Source of the DNA: Pseudomonadota bacterium
GTDB taxonomy: Bacteria > Bdellovibrionota_C > UBA2361 > OMIW01
Assembly: GCA_900299205.1 (NCBI GenBank)
Contig: OMIW01000056.1
Coordinates: 1 to 10,106 of the forward strand
DNA: 10,106 nucleotides
Direction of reading: 5' to 3'
Part shown: one piece after another, positions 1,534-9,844 of the stretch
How positions within the stretch are numbered: position 1 is the first letter of the stretch
Layout of the letters: each line of letters begins with the position of its first letter
Position numbers and translations under genes: made by a program
The notes under the pieces: generated by a model
What the model was told of the DNA's origin: nothing
Seen by the model: only the letters and a program-made list of their open reading frames with translations
The model's database searches: none

Positions 1534-3066
1534 ATGTTGGCAAAAGTAATCACGAGCACCATCGTTGGGCTTCGGGCTCTTCCCGTCGAAGCGCAGATAG
1601 CAATCCGGCCCGGCAAACCGCTTTTTACCCTCGTGGGGATGGCTGACTGTGCGGTAAAGGAGTCACGCGAGCGCATCCTCTCCGCGCTCCGCCACCTAGC
1701 GATCTCGGTGGATAAACAGGTACTCGTTAATCTGGCACCTGCTGAAATTCGAAAGGAGGGCTCTTCGTTTGATTTGCCAGTGGCGATAGGTCTCCTTGCA
1801 GCCTTGAAGCACGTTCCGCGAGCAAGCCTTGCCTCTCGATCATTTCACGGAGAGCTAGCACTCGATGGTGAGCTCCATCGGATTAGGGGAGCAGCAAGCA
1901 TGGCGATAACAGCGATGGAACAGGGAGCATCCGAGATAATTCTTCCTCATGAGAATGTCGCTGAGGTTCGACTTCTGCGTGGAATTGAGCCGATTGGTGC
2001 TCATTCGCTTGCCGAGGTTATAGCCTATCTCCGGGATGGAGTCCGACCTCCGCAACTTTCCCTCAGCTACCCGCAAAGCGGGAATGGGGGATCCCCGTTG
2101 TCTCTCGACCAAGTAATCGGGCAGGATCGGGCGAAGCGTGCTCTCGCAATAGCAGCCGCGGGTGGTCACAATATTCTTTTCATTGGCCCGCCTGGGTGCG
2201 GAAAGTCGATGCTCGCTCAGCGATATGAGGAGCTGCTTCCTCCGATTGGAGAACGGGAGCTGCTCGATATCGTCAAGGTCCATTCGGTCTCGGGATTGCC
2301 CGTAGAGGACTTTCTTCGTGGCAAAAGACCCTTCCGCGCTCCGCATCATTCGCTCAGTGACGCTGCTCTCGTAGGGGGAGGAATGCCTGTCCGTCCAGGT
2401 GAGATCAGTCTTGCCCACGGAGGAGTTCTTTTCCTCGATGAATTCCCCGAGTTTAGGCGTACTGCTATCGAATCGCTCCGAACCCCCCTTGAGGAGGGGA
2501 AAGTCCTGGTCAGTCGCGCTCGGAGCTCGGCGGAATTTCCAGCAAGATTTCAGCTTATTGCGGCCATGAACCCGTGTCCTTGCGGACGGCTTGGGATATC
2601 AAAAGACTCATGCTCATGCAGTCACCTAGCTCTTCAAGGGTATCTTAGAAAGCTTTCTCAGCCGATCCTCGATCGTATCGATCTTCATCTCTATTTACAG
2701 GCGGTGCCGATACAATCAATCCTCCATCCTGCGGTCTCCTCCACTCCCCCGTCGATCCCCGCAAAGCAGCTAAGGGAGCGGATTGGGGGGGCAGTTGCGA
2801 TTCAGCTAGAACGGTCTGGAACGCTGAATGGCTATCTTCCAAGCACCGATTTTCTCGCTGAAAATGCTCTTAACTCCAAGGGTCGGGAGCTTCTCGAACG
2901 GGCTGCCGGCAAGCTCCGTATCTCAGCACGAGGGGTGATGAGGGTCATGCGAGTTGCCAGAACCATCGCCGATCTTGAGGCAACGGGCTCGGTTGACGAA
3001 CATCATATTGCGGAGGCCCTTGGATTTCGGGAGTTAGACCGAATGATGGTGTTTGGGGGGATGTGA
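1534..3066 (+). CDS. comM: YifB/ComM family Mg-chelatase-like AAA+ ATPase
   Basis: A full-length 510-residue member of the YifB/ComM family, whose usual length is about 500-510. Residues 1-170 form the N-terminal ChlI-like domain with the family opening (LAKVITSTIVGLRA, then FTLVGMADCAVKESRERI). The AAA+ core holds Walker A GPPGCGKS (218-225), the RAPHHSLSDAALVGGG block (268-283), Walker B VLFLDEF (298-304) and the SQPILDRIDL block (375-384). Cysteines 348, 350, 360 and 362 around NPCPCG make a possible metal-binding cluster, as is typical of the family. ComM is known in Gram-negative species as a hexameric helicase promoting branch migration when transformed DNA is integrated, but homologues also occur in non-competent bacteria. 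The start is supported by AAGGA 6 bases upstream. It is divergent from the membrane protein gene and shows no functional link to the ilv operon downstream. Confidence 0.95.
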   Translation: MLAKVITSTIVGLRALPVEAQIAIRPGKPLFTLVGMADCAVKESRERILSALRHLAISVDKQVLVNLAPAEIRKEGSSFDLPVAIGLLAALKHVPRASLASRSFHGELALDGELHRIRGAASMAITAMEQGASEIILPHENVAEVRLLRGIEPIGAHSLAEVIAYLRDGVRPPQLSLSYPQSGNGGSPLSLDQVIGQDRAKRALAIAAAGGHNILFIGPPGCGKSMLAQRYEELLPPIGERELLDIVKVHSVSGLPVEDFLRGKRPFRAPHHSLSDAALVGGGMPVRPGEISLAHGGVLFLDEFPEFRRTAIESLRTPLEEGKVLVSRARSSAEFPARFQLIAAMNPCPCGRLGISKDSCSCSHLALQGYLRKLSQPILDRIDLHLYLQAVPIQSILHPAVSSTPPSIPAKQLRERIGGAVAIQLERSGTLNGYLPSTDFLAENALNSKGRELLERAAGKLRISARGVMRVMRVARTIADLEATGSVDEHHIAEALGFRELDRMMVFGGM

Positions 3067-3257
3067 TGCAAGGGTATCTCATGGCTTTTCCGATTTGGAA
3101 TCGGAATCAGGATCCCTCTGCAGCCCTCGGACATTCGGGCCTCTTCATCAAAGAGTTGCCGCTCCCCGTTCTCCTCAGAACCGCCGAGGTCAGAGGCAAC
3201 TCTCCAAGAGACTTCGGGACAGAGCCCGATTGGTTGGACTTGACAAGCGGAGATTGA
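3066..3257 (+). CDS. Possible small protein, 63 aa, overlapping the comM stop
   Basis: A short ORF begins at the ATG that shares one base with the comM TGA (the bases read ATGTGATG), an arrangement typical of translational coupling; a GTG immediately before it (3063) is an alternative start. A run of six G at 3055-3060 could act as a weak ribosome binding site. The product has a hydrophobic start (GYLMAFPIW), a Leu/Pro-rich middle (FIKELPLPVLLRT) and a polar acidic end. I recognise no family. Its 3' end overlaps the -35 box of the ilv promoter, and two inverted repeats lie inside it, so the stretch may simply be non-coding. Codon choice is not clearly different from the neighbours. Confidence 0.22.
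   Translation: MQGYLMAFPIWNRNQDPSAALGHSGLFIKELPLPVLLRTAEVRGNSPRDFGTEPDWLDLTSGD
3088..3106 (+). repeat. Perfect 8-bp inverted repeat after comM
   Basis: TTCCGATT (3088-3095) pairs exactly with AATCGGAA (3099-3106) across a 3-base TGG loop. It begins 21 bases after the comM stop. No T-run follows, so it is not a standard intrinsic terminator; it could stabilise the comM mRNA end or be a binding site. It also lies within the possible small ORF at 3066-3257. Confidence 0.5.
3152..3203 (+). repeat. 9-bp inverted repeat with 34-base loop
   Basis: AGAGTTGCC (3152-3160) is exactly complementary to GGCAACTCT (3195-3203). Inside the loop CCTC (3173-3176) can pair with GAGG (3186-3189). The structure ends 36 bases before the -35 box of the ilv promoter and has no T-run. 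A role as comM transcript end, operator-like site or chance pairing cannot be separated by eye. Confidence 0.4.
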
Positions 3258-3269
3258 ACTCGGTATTCT
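3240..3269 (+). promoter_or_regulatory. Sigma70-like promoter for the ilv-leu operon
   Basis: A perfect -35 box TTGACA (3240-3245) is separated by 18 bases from TATTCT (3264-3269), which matches 4 of 6 positions of the -10 consensus including both conserved ends. The expected transcription start is close to 3276, the A of the first in-frame ATG of the leader ORF. The attenuator is about 90-215 bases downstream, a normal distance for a leader RNA. Confidence 0.65.
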
Positions 3270-3275
3270 CGTGGT

Positions 3276-3428
3276 ATGTCTCGACCAAACTCCATTTTTA
3301 AAGGGCGCCTGGCATCTCCGTTGAGGGGGTTTCGGGGAGATTGTATCCGTTCTGTCGTTCCTTTCTGCACCTCCGGTCTCCTGCTCGTCGTCGTACTCCT
3401 TACGAATCGGTGCGGGCCGCCTGTGTAG
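3276..3428 (+). CDS. Leu/Val-rich leader peptide of the ilv-leu attenuator
   Basis: A 50-codon frame ends at TAG 3426-3428. Near its end are eight consecutive branched-chain codons, CTC CTG CTC GTC GTC GTA CTC CTT at 3378-3401, giving SGLLLVVVLLTNRCGPPV at the C-terminus. Two further Val codons sit at 3354-3359. Such runs near the stop are the hallmark of ilv and leu leader peptides, whose translation, not product, is the regulatory signal. The Leu/Val run sits inside the 1:2 helix, and the last codons (ACG AAT CGG TGC GGG) form antiterminator strand 2. The start is unsure: the ATG at 3276 lies at or next to the predicted transcription start and would be leaderless, while in-frame TTG 3321 would give 35 residues without an obvious ribosome binding site. 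GGGGAG at 3334-3339 lies 5 bases before an in-frame ATC (3345), a very rare start codon. No other in-frame ATG or GTG start exists. Confidence 0.8.
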   Translation: MSRPNSIFKGRLASPLRGFRGDCIRSVVPFCTSGLLLVVVLLTNRCGPPV

Positions 3429-3493
3429 GCGACTGTGGCGAAAAGCCCCCGCACCGATTAAAAACCGGTGCGGGGGCTTTTTTGTTGTTTTTT
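3364..3493 (+). promoter_or_regulatory. Transcription attenuator (1:2, 2:3 and 3:4 pairings) before ilvB
   Basis: Four strands can be read directly. Strand 1 (3364-3371) pairs with strand 2 (3409-3416) over 8 pairs, two of them G-U, enclosing the whole Leu/Val codon run. Strand 2, extended to 3405-3416 (AATCGGTGCGGG), is exactly complementary over 12 bases to strand 3 (3448-3459, CCCGCACCGATT). Strand 3, as part of 3441-3456, is also the left arm of the terminator with strand 4 (3466-3481). Pairings 2:3 and 3:4 exclude each other. A small hairpin CGCCT/AGGCG (3418-3422 with 3427-3431) carries the leader stop. Inferred action: a ribosome stalled at scarce Leu or Val codons frees strand 2, the antiterminator forms and ilvB is transcribed; when charged tRNA is ample the ribosome reaches the stop, covers strand 2, and the terminator forms. 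Confidence 0.88.
3441..3493 (+). terminator. Intrinsic terminator of the ilv leader
   Basis: AAAAGCCCCCGCACCG (3441-3456) is an exact inverted repeat of 3466-3481 across a 9-base loop (ATTAAAAAC). Ten of the twelve inner pairs are G-C, and the right arm runs straight into TTTTTT (3478-3483), followed by a second T-run (3488-3493). The flanking A-run on the left would also permit termination in the reverse direction. It lies 60 bases before ilvB and serves as the off state of the attenuator rather than as the end of comM transcription. Confidence 0.93.
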
Positions 3494-3553
3494 ACGTCTG
3501 TTACTTTTTGAATCGAGCAATCGAATGGCTGCTCACTTATTGAGAGGGCTCGG

Positions 3554-5275
3554 ATGAAACCAACCTTAGATGAAATCGTCCCCCATCAGTCAGAAGAGAT
3601 CACGGGGGCGGAGATCCTGATGCGATCGTTGGTTGAGCATGGAGTTGACGTGGTATTCGGGTATCCAGGAGGGGCAATCATGCCTGTGTACGATGCCCTT
3701 TACCATTACCAAGACAGGATCCGCCATGTCTTGGTCCGTCACGAACAGGGAGCAACGCATGCAGCGGAGGGGTATGCGCGGGTTACAGGCCGATGTGGTG
3801 TCGCGCTTGCTACCTCGGGGCCAGGTGCGACGAACCTTGTGACTGGGATTGCGGACGCACTTATGGATTCAACCCCACTCGTGTGTATTACCGGTCAGGT
3901 GGGCCGAGCGTTGTTGGGAACGGATGCATTTCAGGAGACCGATATTATTGGAGTGACGGTTCCGATTACTAAATGGAACTACCAGGTAACTTCAGCCGAC
4001 GAAATCGCACCTGTCATGGCCAAAGCATTTGCCATCGCACTCGCAGGTCGACCGGGGCCGGTAGTCGTTGACATCACGAAGAACGCCCAACTTGAAAAGG
4101 CCGTCTATCGACGATCAAGCTATACGCCCCCTCTAAGGAGTTTTCATGCGGTCCCTGCCGTGGAGGATTACGAGCGAGCCGCACACTATATCAGTGAAGC
4201 AAAGCGGCCGATGTTGCTGGTGGGACGAGGCGTCCTCGTCGCTCGAGCGCAGCGAGAGCTTCTTAATTTCGCGGAGAAAACGGGAATACCGGTGGCGCTA
4301 ACCCTTCAGGGGCTCTCAGCGTTCCCTACGCGTCACCCCCTCTATGCGGGGATGCTGGGTATGCATGGAAACTACGCACCTAACATCCTCACGAATGAGG
4401 CAGACCTCCTGATAGCAGTTGGGATGAGATTCGACGATCGCGTCACAGGGAATGTCCAGACGTATGCAAAAAGGGCGAAGATCATTCACATTGATATCGA
4501 GCGTGCTGAGATAAATAAATTAGTTTCGGTTGACGTAGGATTGCGCACTGATGCGCGCGAAGGGCTCTTGGCGTTGACTGACCGAGTATCAGATAGTGAG
4601 TATCCGGAATGGCGAGAGCGATTTGCCGCTCTCTACGAGGAGGAGCGCGCGGCGGTTATCTCGCACGAGCTGCTTCCTGAGTCGGGAGGATTGCGGATGG
4701 CGGAGGTGATTCATCGACTTTCTGAGGCGACGGCAGGAGAAGCGATTACGGTTACCGATGTGGGGCAACACCAGATGGCAACCGCCCGTTACTATCGATA
4801 TGCTCGAACTGATGGATGGATATCGTCGGGGGGCTTGGGTACCATGGGCTTTGGCATACCAGCGGCGCTCGGCGCAGCGATAGCAGCACCGGAGCGTACC
4901 GTCCTCGCGATTGTGGGGGACGGTGGCTTTCAGATGACCTGTCAGGAGCTGGGCACAATAGCCCAAGAAAAAACTCCAGTAAAAATTGTTATCATGAATA
5001 ACAATTTTCTGGGGATGGTACGGCAGTGGCAGGAATTGTTTTTTGATAGTCGTTACTCCTTCGTTCATCTCGATAATCCTGATTTCGTCAAACTTTCAGA
5101 GGCATTCGGCATTCCCGCGCGTCGCGTTTCGGAGCGCGATAATCTCGATGAGACGATCAGTTGGGCACTCAATATTGAGGGGCCGTGTCTGATAGAAGTA
5201 CAGGTCGAAAAGGAGGAGAATGTATTTCCGATGATCCCCGCAGGGGCAGGGGTTTCAGAGATTCGACTCGGTTAA
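3554..5275 (+). CDS. ilvB: Acetolactate synthase, large catalytic subunit
   Basis: The 573-residue ThDP enzyme joins two pyruvates to 2-acetolactate (valine, leucine) or pyruvate and 2-ketobutyrate to acetohydroxybutyrate (isoleucine), in the cytoplasm with IlvN. The N-terminal ThDP domain has YPGGAIMPVYDAL (37-49) and the catalytic Glu 64 in RHEQGATHAAEGYAR; SGPGATN (88-94) and GTDAFQETD (122-130) are the standard family blocks. The central FAD-binding domain covers about 200-345 (GMRFDDRVTGN, 290-300). The C-terminal ThDP domain has GDG (455-457) and NNN (482-484), followed by MVRQWQ. Length is normal. GAGAGGG at 3542-3548 lies 5 bases before the ATG. It is the first structural gene after the attenuator. 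The residue after GQV, position 117, is Gly, at a site where plants have Pro and bacterial isozymes vary. Confidence 0.97.
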   Translation: MKPTLDEIVPHQSEEITGAEILMRSLVEHGVDVVFGYPGGAIMPVYDALYHYQDRIRHVLVRHEQGATHAAEGYARVTGRCGVALATSGPGATNLVTGIADALMDSTPLVCITGQVGRALLGTDAFQETDIIGVTVPITKWNYQVTSADEIAPVMAKAFAIALAGRPGPVVVDITKNAQLEKAVYRRSSYTPPLRSFHAVPAVEDYERAAHYISEAKRPMLLVGRGVLVARAQRELLNFAEKTGIPVALTLQGLSAFPTRHPLYAGMLGMHGNYAPNILTNEADLLIAVGMRFDDRVTGNVQTYAKRAKIIHIDIERAEINKLVSVDVGLRTDAREGLLALTDRVSDSEYPEWRERFAALYEEERAAVISHELLPESGGLRMAEVIHRLSEATAGEAITVTDVGQHQMATARYYRYARTDGWISSGGLGTMGFGIPAALGAAIAAPERTVLAIVGDGGFQMTCQELGTIAQEKTPVKIVIMNNNFLGMVRQWQELFFDSRYSFVHLDNPDFVKLSEAFGIPARRVSERDNLDETISWALNIEGPCLIEVQVEKEENVFPMIPAGAGVSEIRLG

Positions 5276-5292: not shown

Positions 5293-5808
5293 ATGTCAGC
5301 GAGTGTCTGCTTAACGGTGTATTCAGACAATAATCCGGGATTGCTACACCGGGTGACTGCAGTATTCACCCGACGCAAAATGAATATCGAGTCGCTCACC
5401 GTGTCGGATACTGAGCTGGCGGGGGTTTCCCGTTACACGATCGTGATACGATCTGACAGCGACGCAGCGGGAAAAATAGCGGAGCAGATTCGGAAGATCA
5501 TAGAGGTTCATGAGGTCGTCGTCGGCGAGGAGGAGGCGATGGTTAGTCGTGAGGTGGCGCTTGTGAAGCTTCCTCGGAGCTGCTCTGCGGGGATAGCTCA
5601 CGTTGTTTCAACTCATGGATTAGTGCTCGTGTCGGAGGGGGATAGTGTCGTGATATTCGAAAAGACGGGCTCGGTAGAGGAGGTCAGCGATGCGCTTTTT
5701 GCCCTTCGACCCTTCGGTATCATCGAATTTGCTCGATCGGGCCGGATTAGTATGGCTGCCTTAGCGGAGCGATGGAGCGGGCCATCGAATGACACATTCT
5801 CGGGCTAA
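5293..5808 (+). CDS. ilvN: Acetolactate synthase, small regulatory subunit
   Basis: At 171 residues this matches the usual IlvH/IlvN length of about 160-175. The N-terminal ACT domain (about 4-78) holds NNPGLLHRV (13-21) and MNIESLTVSDTELAGVSRYTIV (30-51). Asn 13, Gly 16 and Asn 31 align with E. coli IlvH Asn 11, Gly 14 and Asn 29, positions tied to valine binding, so valine feedback on IlvB is likely. The C-terminal domain (about 86-157) has REVALVKL and the closing RPFGIIEFARSGRISMA. The wording of the ACT domain resembles, from memory, Bacteroidota IlvN more than enterobacterial IlvH. A strong GAGGAGAGG site (5282-5290) precedes the ATG, and the gap to ilvB is only 17 bases, so the two are translated from one message. 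Confidence 0.94.
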   Translation: MSASVCLTVYSDNNPGLLHRVTAVFTRRKMNIESLTVSDTELAGVSRYTIVIRSDSDAAGKIAEQIRKIIEVHEVVVGEEEAMVSREVALVKLPRSCSAGIAHVVSTHGLVLVSEGDSVVIFEKTGSVEEVSDALFALRPFGIIEFARSGRISMAALAERWSGPSNDTFSG

Positions 5809-5909: not shown

Positions 5910-6953
5910 ATGGCACGGATGATGTTTGGAGATGTTGAGGAGAGTGTGGTGACCCGTGATGAGGTATCGCTTGATACGGCGAGAGCAATCCTCGCGGAAG
6001 AGACGATTGCGGTCATAGGGTACGGGGTTCAGGGACCAGCTCAGGCGATGAACCTCCGTGATAACGGCTTTCGGGTCATCATCGGACAACGAGAGGGTGG
6101 CGCATCGTGGGAAAAGGCGATAGCCGACGGTTGGCAGCCCGGTGAGACGCTCTTCTCGATCGAAGAGGCGGCCAAGCAAGGATCCATTATTCTCAATCTT
6201 CTCTCTGATGCGGGTCAAATCGCCACGTGGCCGTCGATATCGGCGGGACTCACCGCTGGTAAGGCGCTCGCATTCTCGCATGGTTTTGGGATCGTATTCT
6301 CCGATGATACCGGAATTTTACCTCCCTCGGATGTCGATGTTTTTCTCGTTGCCCCGAAAGGGTCAGGAATGAGTGTGCGACGGCTGTTTCAGCAAGGCAA
6401 AGGAATCAATTCGAGCTTTGCCGTTCATCAAGATGCGACCGGACGGGCTCGCGATCGGGTTACCGCCCTCGGTATTGGGGTAGGATCGGGGTACCTTTTC
6501 GAGACTAACTTCCGAAACGAGGTGGTGAGCGATTTGGTCGGTGAGCGAGGAGTTCTCATGGGTGCGCTCGCAGGAATTATCGAAGCCCAGTATCGGGTGT
6601 TGCGAGCGAATGGACATTCGCCAAGCGAAGCGTTCAACGAAACCGTTGAAGAGCTCACCCAAAGCCTGGTGCCCCTCGTTGGAGAGAACGGGATGGATTG
6701 GATGTTCTCTTGCTGTTCGACAACCGCTCAGCGTGGGGCCCTCGATTGGCGGCATAAGTTCCGCGACGCAGTCGCGCCCGTGTTTGAGGAGCTTTATGAC
6801 AATGTTGCATCGGGTCGTGAAGCCAAGCACGTCATTGCTAAGAACAGCGACGCAAACTACCGAATCGCCCTCGATAAGGAGCTAGCTGAGGTGGCAGAAG
6901 CTGAAGTATGGCGTGCAGGGAAACAGGTCCGTTCTCTGCGGCCGACCCGATAG
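5910..6953 (+). CDS. ilvC: Ketol-acid reductoisomerase, 347 aa
   Basis: It performs the Mg-dependent rearrangement and NAD(P)H reduction of acetolactate or acetohydroxybutyrate to dihydroxy acids. The N-terminal Rossmann domain carries GYGVQGPAQAMNL (37-49) and the cofactor loop GQREGGASWEKA (59-70). Conserved catalytic parts are SHGFGI (123-128), APKGSG (148-153), the metal-binding Asp 208 and Glu 212 in SDLVGERGVLMG, Glu 244 and Glu 248 in FNETVEELT, and CCSTTAQRGA (268-277). There is one knotted domain, so it is the short class I form, not the roughly 490-residue enterobacterial class II. The whole sequence reads like Bacteroidota and related ilvC rather than the usual bacterial GYGSQGHAHALNL type; this comparison is from memory. 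GAGAG lies 7 bases upstream of the ATG. Confidence 0.95.
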   Translation: MARMMFGDVEESVVTRDEVSLDTARAILAEETIAVIGYGVQGPAQAMNLRDNGFRVIIGQREGGASWEKAIADGWQPGETLFSIEEAAKQGSIILNLLSDAGQIATWPSISAGLTAGKALAFSHGFGIVFSDDTGILPPSDVDVFLVAPKGSGMSVRRLFQQGKGINSSFAVHQDATGRARDRVTALGIGVGSGYLFETNFRNEVVSDLVGERGVLMGALAGIIEAQYRVLRANGHSPSEAFNETVEELTQSLVPLVGENGMDWMFSCCSTTAQRGALDWRHKFRDAVAPVFEELYDNVASGREAKHVIAKNSDANYRIALDKELAEVAEAEVWRAGKQVRSLRPTR

Positions 6954-6999
6954 ATGCGATGCCTGGAAGGGGGCTCAGTCTCGGGGCCCTCACCTCCCT

Positions 7000-7019
7000 T
7001 CGGACCACGGATGGTCCGA
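7000..7019 (+). repeat. Perfect 8-bp hairpin between ilvC and leuA
   Basis: TCGGACCA (7000-7007) is exactly complementary to TGGTCCGA (7012-7019) across a 4-base CGGA loop. Just upstream GAAGGG (6966-6971) can pair with CCCTTC (6996-7001), overlapping the first two bases of the hairpin, so the two structures compete slightly. No T-run follows. It lies 45 bases before the chosen leuA start and its presence supports reading 6954-7064 as untranslated. Confidence 0.5.
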
Positions 7020-7064
7020 CGAAATATTATCGGTAAAATCGAGCAGGGGCAGGAGACACTGACG

Positions 7065-8729
7065 ATGGATGACGCGAAAAAAGGGTCCTCGGACCGACAC
7101 GTGCGGATATTCGACACAACGCTGCGTGACGGCCAACAATGCCCTGGTGCGGGGATGAGCTTTGAGAAAAATCTCGAATATGCTCATCTCGCCGCTCAGC
7201 TTCGTGTTGATGTGCTCGAAGCAGGCTTCCCCTCGGCGAGCCAGCTCGATTTTGAGATTGTGAGCCGGATTGCGTCAGAGCTTGCTTCAGGCGAAGAGGG
7301 GCCAGTCGTTGCGGGGCTCTGCCAGTTGCGCTCCGACCAGATTGATCGAACGATTGAGTCCCTTCATCGGGCGATTCCCGCAAAACGAGCTCGGGTCCAC
7401 ACCTACGTTCCGGTGGATCCCGGTCTTATGGTCGCCTCCCTTGGTAAACGGGCTGAGGATTTCTCTGGTATCGTCAACGATGTTGGCCGATTTATTGAGC
7501 GGGCAACAGAAGCGGGGTGTGAGGTCGAATTTAGCCCCGAGGGATATTCCCGCATGGGGGCCAACTTCGATTTCGTAACAGACCTTATTCGAGCGGCAGT
7601 CCAATCTGGAGCTACGGTGATTAACTGCCCCGATACGATTGGGGGGGCCTCGCGGATGCAGGGGGATCGCTATTTCGTCCAGAAGATGAAACAGCACGCC
7701 GCAATTATCGCTCAAGAGTTCCCTGAAAGAGAGGTGACCTGGTCAGTGCACTGTCACAACGACTTTGGGCTCGCGCTCGATAATACGCTTGAGGGAGTTT
7801 TTCGAGGACCAGCGCTCCAGGTTGAGGGGTGTATGAACGGAATTGGGGAGCGAGCGGGTAATGTCGCGCTTGAGCAGGTAATTCTCGCGATAGAGCACTT
7901 CGGTGGATTTGTCGACCAGGAGCATCCTTTCTGGACACGGATTGATGTAAGTCATCTGCAGCGGGTCTCTGATTTTGTTCGTCGTCACATGTTGCCGAGG
8001 CAACCTCATTGGCCAATAACCGGCGATAATGCGAGCAAACATTCATCGGGTGGGCATACGAACGCGATCCTGCGTGATCCCCTCGCCTATCAACCATTTG
8101 ATCCCCGTTCAATCGGTCGGGAAGTTTCTATTGTATTCGGTCCTCTATCAGGGGGAAATCACGCCAAGGCTTTAATCGAGGCGCGAGGGTATCGGTGCGA
8201 TGATCACGAGAAGGCAGCGATTGCTCAGCACATCAAAAGCCTTTTCAAAGATCGGCGCAAAGGGATCACTGAGGAGGAATTACTTGAGGGATATCTCGAT
8301 TATCGTCGGGTGGCACGGATAGAGTCTTTCCAGTATCGCAAAGAAGGGGGGCAGGCTGGTGTAACGCTTCGCGGCAATTTCTTCGGACGAGAGGGAGAAG
8401 TGTCGTGGACCCGTCAGGGGGATGACTCGGCGCTCGTTGCGCTTAAGGAGCTTATCGATCAGGAATTACCGGGAACGGAGATACTCTCCCACCGAGCTGA
8501 GTCCGAGGAGGAGGGAGCTAGATCGAGAAGTGTATCGCGGATCGTGATTCGTAATGGAGGGGACCAGAACTGGACGGGAGTGGGAGTCGACAGCGATATA
8601 GAAATAGCGGCTATGAAGGCGTTGCTCGATGCAGTCAATCGCGCGTGGATCGATAAGCATTTCGCGCAGGAGCCAAAGCCGTTCTCACTGTCGGGCATCG
8701 CCGAGGAAGAGGGCGAGGGATCAATTTGA
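7065..8729 (+). CDS. leuA: 2-isopropylmalate synthase (divergent LeuA form)
   Basis: It condenses acetyl-CoA with 2-ketoisovalerate, the committed step to leucine. I chose ATG 7065 (554 residues): AGGAG lies 9 bases upstream and the DRE-TIM signature DTTLRDGQQCPG (17-28) then starts near the N-terminus. The frame stays open to 6954, but those 37 extra residues cover a perfect hairpin and resemble no part of the family. Metal ligands are Asp 22 and His 229/His 231 (VHCHND), and GCMNGIGERAGN (255-266) closes the active site. Residues about 430-540 form the C-terminal regulatory domain, ending WTGVGVDSDIEIAAMKALLDA, as expected for leucine feedback. Several blocks differ from classical LeuA: VHTYVPVDPG (111-120), FSPEGYSRMG (156-165) and FGPLSGGNHAKAL in the linker. 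A related activity such as citramalate synthase is less likely given the leuB partner. Confidence 0.88.
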   Translation: MDDAKKGSSDRHVRIFDTTLRDGQQCPGAGMSFEKNLEYAHLAAQLRVDVLEAGFPSASQLDFEIVSRIASELASGEEGPVVAGLCQLRSDQIDRTIESLHRAIPAKRARVHTYVPVDPGLMVASLGKRAEDFSGIVNDVGRFIERATEAGCEVEFSPEGYSRMGANFDFVTDLIRAAVQSGATVINCPDTIGGASRMQGDRYFVQKMKQHAAIIAQEFPEREVTWSVHCHNDFGLALDNTLEGVFRGPALQVEGCMNGIGERAGNVALEQVILAIEHFGGFVDQEHPFWTRIDVSHLQRVSDFVRRHMLPRQPHWPITGDNASKHSSGGHTNAILRDPLAYQPFDPRSIGREVSIVFGPLSGGNHAKALIEARGYRCDDHEKAAIAQHIKSLFKDRRKGITEEELLEGYLDYRRVARIESFQYRKEGGQAGVTLRGNFFGREGEVSWTRQGDDSALVALKELIDQELPGTEILSHRAESEEEGARSRSVSRIVIRNGGDQNWTGVGVDSDIEIAAMKALLDAVNRAWIDKHFAQEPKPFSLSGIAEEEGEGSI

Positions 8730-8746
8730 TAGGCGGAGTGGGGAAT

Positions 8747-9844
8747 ATGTTGGCAAACGGAGCTTCCTATTCATTGGCGGTGCTACCCGGCGATGGTATC
8801 GGGCCCGAGGTCGTTGATGCGGCTCTGAAGGTGCTGAATGCCGTCGAAAAACGGGAGGGCTTTTCGACTCTCATATCAAAGGGGTTGATTGGAGGTGCGG
8901 CGTACGATGTCTTTGGGGAGCATCTTCCGCAGGCGACGATAGATATTTGTCGGGGCTCGTCTGCAATACTTTTTGGTTCAGTAGGTGGTCCCCTTACTGA
9001 AGCAGCAAAACCAAAGTGGGCGAATTGCGAGCGTAATTCAATCCTCTCTCTCAGGAAGGAGTTTGGGTTTTATGCAAACATCAGGTCGCTGAGGGTTCCC
9101 CCCGGACTGGAGCATCTCTCCCCTCTACGACAAGGATTGATTCCGGGCGGTCATTCCATCATGGTGATTCGAGAGCTTCTAGGCGATATTTATTTTGGAG
9201 AACACAACACAACAGGGGTCAGCCCGAAACGAATTGCATCAGATATTGCGGAGTATCGAGAGGAAGAGATCCTCAGGATTGCGCGGCTCGGGTTTGAGCT
9301 CGCGCGAGGAAGGCGACGCTCGGTCGTGTCAGTCGACAAGGCAAATGTCCTCGATACCTCTCGGTTGTGGCGGGATGTGGTAACCTCGGTGCAGCGAGAG
9401 TTCCCCGACGTGACCGTTGAGCATCAGCTTGTCGATAATTGCGCGATGCAGTTGGTGAGAAATCCAGCGCAGTTCGATCTGCTCCTTTGCCCGAATCTAT
9501 TTGGTGATATCCTTTCCGATATTGTATCGGTGTTGGGTGGTTCGCTCGGATTGATGCCCTCGGCGAGTTTGAACGACCAGGGATTTGGATTGTATGAGCC
9601 TGCAGGGGGCTCAGCTCCTGATATCGCAGGGAAGGGAATTGCAAATCCGATAGGGCAGATACTCTCCCTCGCGATGTTGCTGAGATATTCATGGCGGATG
9701 GACGGCGCGGCGAATGCAATCGAGATGGCAGTCGAAACGGCGCTCGCATCAGGAGCGCGGACCCGCGATCTTTGCCGGTCGGGCGAGCCATCAGTTTCGA
9801 CCGAGGAGTTCGCCGAGGCAGTTGTGCAGGCGTTGGAGGAATAA
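8747..9844 (+). CDS. leuB: 3-isopropylmalate dehydrogenase
   Basis: The 365-residue enzyme oxidises and decarboxylates 3-isopropylmalate with NAD in leucine synthesis. It opens with VLPGDGIGPEV (12-22). Substrate-binding arginines are in SLRKEFGFYANIR (101-113) and VIRELLGDIYFG (140-151), with Lys 198 in SVDKAN and the metal aspartates Asp 230, Asp 254 and Asp 258. The NAD loop YEPAGGSAPDIAGKGIANP (283-301) marks a leuB rather than an isocitrate dehydrogenase. The start is ATG 8747, with GGAG 8 bases upstream. The frame is open to a TTG at 8726 overlapping the leuA stop, but that start has no such site. The gap to leuA is 17 bases, so it belongs to the operon. No terminator is visible in the 25 bases after its stop. 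Confidence 0.95.
   Translation: MLANGASYSLAVLPGDGIGPEVVDAALKVLNAVEKREGFSTLISKGLIGGAAYDVFGEHLPQATIDICRGSSAILFGSVGGPLTEAAKPKWANCERNSILSLRKEFGFYANIRSLRVPPGLEHLSPLRQGLIPGGHSIMVIRELLGDIYFGEHNTTGVSPKRIASDIAEYREEEILRIARLGFELARGRRRSVVSVDKANVLDTSRLWRDVVTSVQREFPDVTVEHQLVDNCAMQLVRNPAQFDLLLCPNLFGDILSDIVSVLGGSLGLMPSASLNDQGFGLYEPAGGSAPDIAGKGIANPIGQILSLAMLLRYSWRMDGAANAIEMAVETALASGARTRDLCRSGEPSVSTEEFAEAVVQALEE

Follow-up and report, generated by a model that had tools for sequence, protein, structure and literature searches.

Leader of the ilvBNC-leuAB operon

Positions 3276–3493 of the window, that is, of the whole 10,106-nt stretch of contig OMIW01000056.1 (lineage Bdellovibrionota_C) analysed here, lie between a comM-like gene that ends at 3066 and a branched-chain amino acid (BCAA) operon with the gene order ilvB-ilvN-ilvC-leuA-leuB. 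We found that this stretch is the leader of the operon and holds all parts of a ribosome-mediated attenuator, the weakest of which is the helix between strands 1 and 2. An initial annotation of the DNA, made from its letters alone, had proposed such an attenuator at this place.

The leader peptide open reading frame (ORF; MSRPNSIFKGRLASPLRGFRGDCIRSVVPFCTSGLLLVVVLLTNRCGPPV) runs for 50 codons on the + strand, as do all features below unless stated, from an ATG at 3276 to a TAG at 3426–3428, and its frame, which is probably leaderless, is open throughout. Eight consecutive control codons, CTC CTG CTC GTC GTC GTA CTC CTT (LLLVVVLL, or Leu3 Val3 Leu2), occupy 3378–3401 and are followed, still within the ORF, by strand 2 (3405–3416), the 5′ arm of an antiterminator that makes 12 exact pairs with 3448–3459. 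The latter segment is part of strand 3 (3441–3459), whose positions 3441–3456 make 16 exact pairs with strand 4 (3466–3481), the 3′ arm of the terminator, at −31.8 kcal/mol. Since the antiterminator overlaps the terminator arm, the two helices are mutually exclusive. T-runs at 3478–3483 and 3488–3493 (TTTTTTGTTGTTTTTT, 3478–3493) complete the intrinsic terminator, 61 nt before ilvB. The codon run, the stop and the exact complementarity of both helices had all been described in the initial annotation and were recovered at the same positions. In dinucleotide shuffles of the comM-ilvB gap, an eight-codon Leu/Val run arose in 2 of 5000 (three + frames) and an exact stem of at least 12 bp in none of 100, while the folding z-score of 3276–3493 was −2.9.

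Beyond what had been described earlier, we found a promoter at 3240–3269, with TTGACA as −35 box (3240–3245), an 18-nt spacer and TATTCT as −10 box (3264–3269), matching 10 of 12 consensus bases. It was the only promoter-like site in 3060–3600, where 0.1 would be expected, and it predicts a transcription start at or next to 3276. The element should be taken from the promoter onward.

Family models bore out the combined operon that the initial annotation had named. ilvB (3554–5275, acetolactate synthase large subunit; TIGR00118 over cut-off, and Pfam), ilvN (5293–5808, small subunit; TIGR00119 over cut-off) and ilvC (5910–6953, ketol-acid reductoisomerase; TIGR00465 over cut-off) are followed by a leuA-like 2-isopropylmalate synthase gene (6954–8729), which has HMGL-like and LeuA_dimer domains and leuA as its best NCBIfam models, below their cut-offs, and by leuB (8726–9844, 3-isopropylmalate dehydrogenase; TIGR00169 over cut-off). 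Elsewhere in this genome, which holds one copy of an attenuator of this type, other contigs carry ilvD and a gene resembling ilvA. Upstream of the comM-like gene and on the opposite strand, a 232-aa ORF (615–1313, −) had no Pfam match.

Conservation and covariation within the phylum

Across 45 genomes of the window's phylum we located 20 ilvB places, and at 10 of them, the window and nine others, an upstream ORF (uORF) with a BCAA codon run preceded a hairpin and a T-run. The leader peptides of relatives include MNSICNILLLVVVIIGLEPRCGVLR (genome G006), MLKSRTIDPLILPANIVAGLIIIITGSRCGPPL (G001) and MAHARVNLLLVVVVLLVQVTRCGPV (G005), with BCAA-rich codons at the corresponding place. A covariance model (R1) that carried only the terminator structure, with the antiterminator left out, added five further leaders (G040, G041, G025, G032 and G043), giving 15 in total. 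Two of these, G040 and G041, belong to one family and carry the attenuator before ilvC in place of ilvB (L125 and L129), so that, judged by its placement, the attenuator has apparently moved between operons. The G025 leader (L119) stands before a pyridoxal phosphate (PLP) aminotransferase-like gene whose best models are of the MocR/PdxR type, below cut-offs, and which may encode a BCAA aminotransferase. The remaining two have missing or indistinct downstream genes, G032 lying near a contig end; at the G043 leader (L123; G043:C116:772-862, −), which R1 matches well and whose uORF ends in LLIIRARCGPPSRR, no recognisable BCAA gene was within reach downstream. Antisense R1 matches were set aside as mere reflections of the near-palindromic terminator.

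Comparison of homologous leaders, which the initial annotation had named as a test able to refute its proposal, showed the Leu/Val/Ile-rich uORF to be kept and compensatory changes to be present in both the 2:3 and the 3:4 helix; the annotation had suggested looking for covariation in all four strands, and strand 1 is weakly supported. Over the 10 ilvB leaders, 93% of antiterminator cells were paired, with 8 double-change cells (slid controls, 37–57% paired), and 94% of terminator cells were paired, with 12 double-change cells (slid controls, 40–67%). When all 15 leaders were used, the antiterminator columns were still 88% paired with 13 double-change cells and scored 0.215 against 0.023–0.118 for slid controls, and the terminator covariation likewise persisted. 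Shuffle counts are optimistic owing to the relatedness of the leaders, and the slid control is the better guide. Sequence conservation was centred on strands 2, 3 and 4.

These data bear on one alternative, a constitutive terminator for comM or stray transcription, with the uORF a chance frame or an unrelated small gene. A strong symmetric hairpin with T-runs is typical of any intrinsic terminator, and R1 also matched plain terminators elsewhere: weaker matches that we opened within the phylum (L126, L127, L128 and L130) proved to be terminators without a BCAA uORF. However, comM and the hairpin are separated by a promoter, covariation is also seen in a second helix that excludes the terminator, and relatives repeat the BCAA-rich uORF in place with almost constant spacing between strand 2 and the stop, which makes a plain terminator very unlikely.

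Selection appears to act on the RNA rather than on the peptide. The leader peptides vary freely except in the BCAA run and in the residues that strand 2 encodes. Most end in R/G-C-G plus one to four residues, and the Cys-Gly near the end is what strand 2 encodes (TGC GGG). G035 reads the core GGUGCGGG in a different frame (GGT GCG GGC), as does G003, a change of frame that points to the RNA as the object of selection and led us to reject the peptide as the conserved object. For this reason we also give very little credence to a leader peptide that is a conserved product acting in trans, as proposed for peTrpL in Sinorhizobium meliloti. The shared R/G-C-G ending of most peptides would suit such a product, as would the predicted leaderless small mRNA, which resembles rnTrpL, an RNA that starts with the trpL ATG (PMC7298713); yet the sequences differ freely elsewhere, and G035 and G003 lose the peptide end while keeping the RNA.

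Metabolite-binding RNAs were considered as well. T-boxes control BCAA genes of Firmicutes. In some bacteria ppGpp riboswitches control ilvB genes (PMC10272879), so that a riboswitch or T-box could stand here in place of a translated attenuator. In an Rfam search of the window and seven relatives, no family, these included, reached its gathering threshold, and no conserved aptamer-like region was seen beyond the attenuator strands; we consider this the least probable of the alternatives, and extremely so. The comparison with ilv/leu leader models suggested by the initial annotation thus gave no hit at threshold, the Leu_leader family (RF00512) aligning over its full length and in the right orientation at 19.4 bits against a gathering score of 50.

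Ribosome position, start of translation and control codons

Given the parts, their conservation, the covariation of both helices and the geometry described below, we read the element as a transcription attenuator that works through the ribosome and responds to the charging of tRNA-Leu and tRNA-Val (probability about 0.92). From these we infer transcription start, translation, starvation response and termination in the cell to proceed as follows. RNA polymerase would start near 3276 and a ribosome would load on the AUG, which lies at the 5′ end or close to it. When Leu- or Val-tRNA is scarce, the ribosome would stall at about 3378–3395, before strand 2, so that strand 2 could pair with strand 3 ahead of the synthesis of strand 4; no terminator would form and ilvBNC-leuAB would be transcribed. 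When both are plentiful, the ribosome would reach the stop at 3426, 10 nt beyond strand 2, and cover strand 2, leaving strands 3 and 4 to pair and transcription to end in the T-runs near 3478–3493. If the leader were untranslated, or the ribosome stalled well upstream, strand 2 could pair with sequence upstream of it, and formation of the terminator would be expected.

The positions of stop and control run are consistent with this scheme, as the initial annotation had claimed. Counted from the first base of the strand 2 core, GGYGCG, the stop codon starts 17 nt downstream in 10 of 15 leaders and 9–23 nt downstream in the others, a position at which a terminating ribosome sits over strand 2. 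The control run begins 17–42 nt before the core across the 15 leaders, a distance that leaves strand 2 free when a ribosome stalls in the first part of the run. Folding with a ribosome in place, which we assumed to cover about 15 nt downstream of its A site, agreed: as long as strand 4 was missing, a ribosome at 3378 or 3387 let strands 2 and 3 pair at −33.0 kcal/mol; at 3396, part of strand 2 was hidden; and at the stop, the 3:4 terminator was the sole helix able to form. By this model, sensing should fall mainly to the first six codons (Leu3 Val3), with a smaller part for the two Leu codons that end the run.

Three points weigh against ribosome-mediated attenuation. First, the element is missing from 10 of the 20 ilvB places in the phylum; at these ten, the R1 match never exceeded 16 bits, although some are partial or short upstream and two genomes, from a single family, have the element before ilvC. 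Second, in Streptomyces coelicolor an attenuator-like leader precedes ilvB, and its candidate control codons were changed without effect (PMC1262725). Third, strand 1 lags behind the other strands. The candidate strand 1 (3364–3371) makes by inspection 8 pairs with 3409–3416 (6 Watson-Crick, 2 G-U); this helix exists and encloses the Leu/Val codons as the initial annotation had described, but upstream pairing with strand 2 in the window was no better than in shuffles (z +1.2), and the helix is not the minimum-energy pairing of its region. Over the 15 leaders, upstream pairing with strand 2 reached a combined z of −3.4, driven by a few of them, and the strand 2 core was mostly paired upstream in the predicted fold of all leaders but one, a count that had no shuffled control. 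A protector role of strand 1 is plausible, and it is the least supported part of the attenuator.

With the −10 box ending 6 nt upstream of the ATG at 3276, +1 would coincide with the A of the ATG or with a base beside it, and the leader ORF would then probably be leaderless. Across 16 leaders (the 15 of the phylum and one outside it, with start codons chosen by us, mostly by ORF), the best promoter-like pair lay 5–9 nt before the ATG in 6, against a shuffle mean of 1.06 and a maximum of 5 in 2000; two of these six come from one genus. Shine-Dalgarno pairing was mostly absent at the leader ATGs and mostly present at the ilvB ATGs; the ATG at 3276 has a weak upstream anti-Shine-Dalgarno pairing of −3.0 kcal/mol, in DNA that lies mostly outside the predicted transcript. 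Together, the promoter spacing, the scarcity of Shine-Dalgarno sites and the same geometry in several relatives argue for a leaderless frame. In G001, G035 and G037 the best promoter-like site is further upstream, so the close spacing is not universal. An in-frame TTG at 3321 was discarded as an alternative start, with no ribosome site by eye.

The sensed starvation had been predicted from the lack of Ile in the control run, and this fits what we found in relatives. A threonine-synthase/threonine-ammonia-lyase-like gene is present in the operons of G001, G003, G006 and G029, followed by ilvD in G001, G003 and G029, and G029 also has thrA- and thrC-like genes; in G040 a citramalate-synthase-like gene follows ilvC. 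All five of these operons thus hold an Ile-pathway gene, and their leaders have Ile codons in or beside the control run. There is no Ile in the control run of the window, whose operon contains leuAB, or of G035 (ilvBNC), and one in that of G037 (ilvBN). This pattern, from a small sample and recognised after the fact, agrees with control codons that follow operon content, and with a leader in the window that would sense Leu and Val, not Ile.

In the ilvBNC operons of G006 (L142:4195-6042, +), G001 (L145:5176-7023, −) and G003 (L146:4603-6396, +), a fusion protein of about 600 aa combines a threonine-synthase/threonine-ammonia-lyase-like PLP domain with a C-terminal match to the allosteric end of 2-isopropylmalate synthase, and it may be an unusually built threonine deaminase that is subject to feedback regulation. 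The G029 form is shorter and lacks the 2-isopropylmalate synthase-like C-terminal end.

More tentatively, and at slightly less than even odds, BCAA attenuation in this phylum might often run through leaderless ORFs, the ribosome loading on a 5′-terminal AUG as it leaves RNA polymerase. Initiation would thereby be tied to transcription start without a Shine-Dalgarno sequence, the codons would be retuned for each operon (Ile in or out), and the distance from strand 2 to the stop would stay nearly fixed.

Comparison with known systems

In 18 genomes outside the phylum, R1 matches reached at most 42 bits, and the four strongest, which we opened (L162–L165), were terminators without a BCAA uORF. 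The ilvB genes from a search of named genomes were mostly those of Bacteroidota, only a few of which had anything like a BCAA uORF with a terminator. In one genome outside the phylum (G048, L099), ilvB is preceded by a separate BCAA leader (LLIVIL) and by a 13-bp terminator of unrelated hairpin sequence, and a TATAAT box stands 8 nt upstream of the leader ATG; the different hairpin fits a repeated origin. Short VVVVV or LVVLIV uORFs, followed by a hairpin and T-run before ilvB, in a Flavobacteriales metagenome-assembled genome (L039) and in a record titled Microgenomates (L077) suggest further BCAA attenuators elsewhere.

Similar leaders have been described as the Corynebacterium ilvB-II, ilvB-OMG and Leptospira ilvB motifs, in which a BCAA-codon-rich uORF and a terminator precede ilvB and for which attenuation has been proposed (PMC10272879). 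The leader in the window shares this arrangement. Unlike it, ilvB-II mostly has a uORF of 15–17 codons and an antiterminator that uses the 3′ side of the terminator stem (PMC10272879). The ilvB-OMG motif (41 representatives) may overlap with the leaders here. The Sinorhizobium meliloti trpL transcript (rnTrpL) begins at the leader peptide ATG (PMC7298713), like the transcript predicted here, but that leader senses Trp, not Leu or Val, and belongs to another phylum.

These leaders add a small phylum, covered here by draft genomes only, to those with amino acid attenuation, and constitute an RNA family that lies below every Rfam threshold and could become an added model. The match between codons and operon lets one read which starvation an uncultured organism would sense, and the predicted leaderless start would be a simple means of coupling ribosome to polymerase. 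In mechanism they belong with the leaders of E. coli leu, ilvB and ilvGMEDA. Compared with the E. coli leu and ilv leaders, the leader peptide, the RNA core, the combined ilvBNC-leuAB operon and the predicted leaderless start are different here; the regulator itself is of an ordinary kind, in a lineage that has been little studied, and what is added is a start that is likely leaderless and a correspondence between control codons and operon content.
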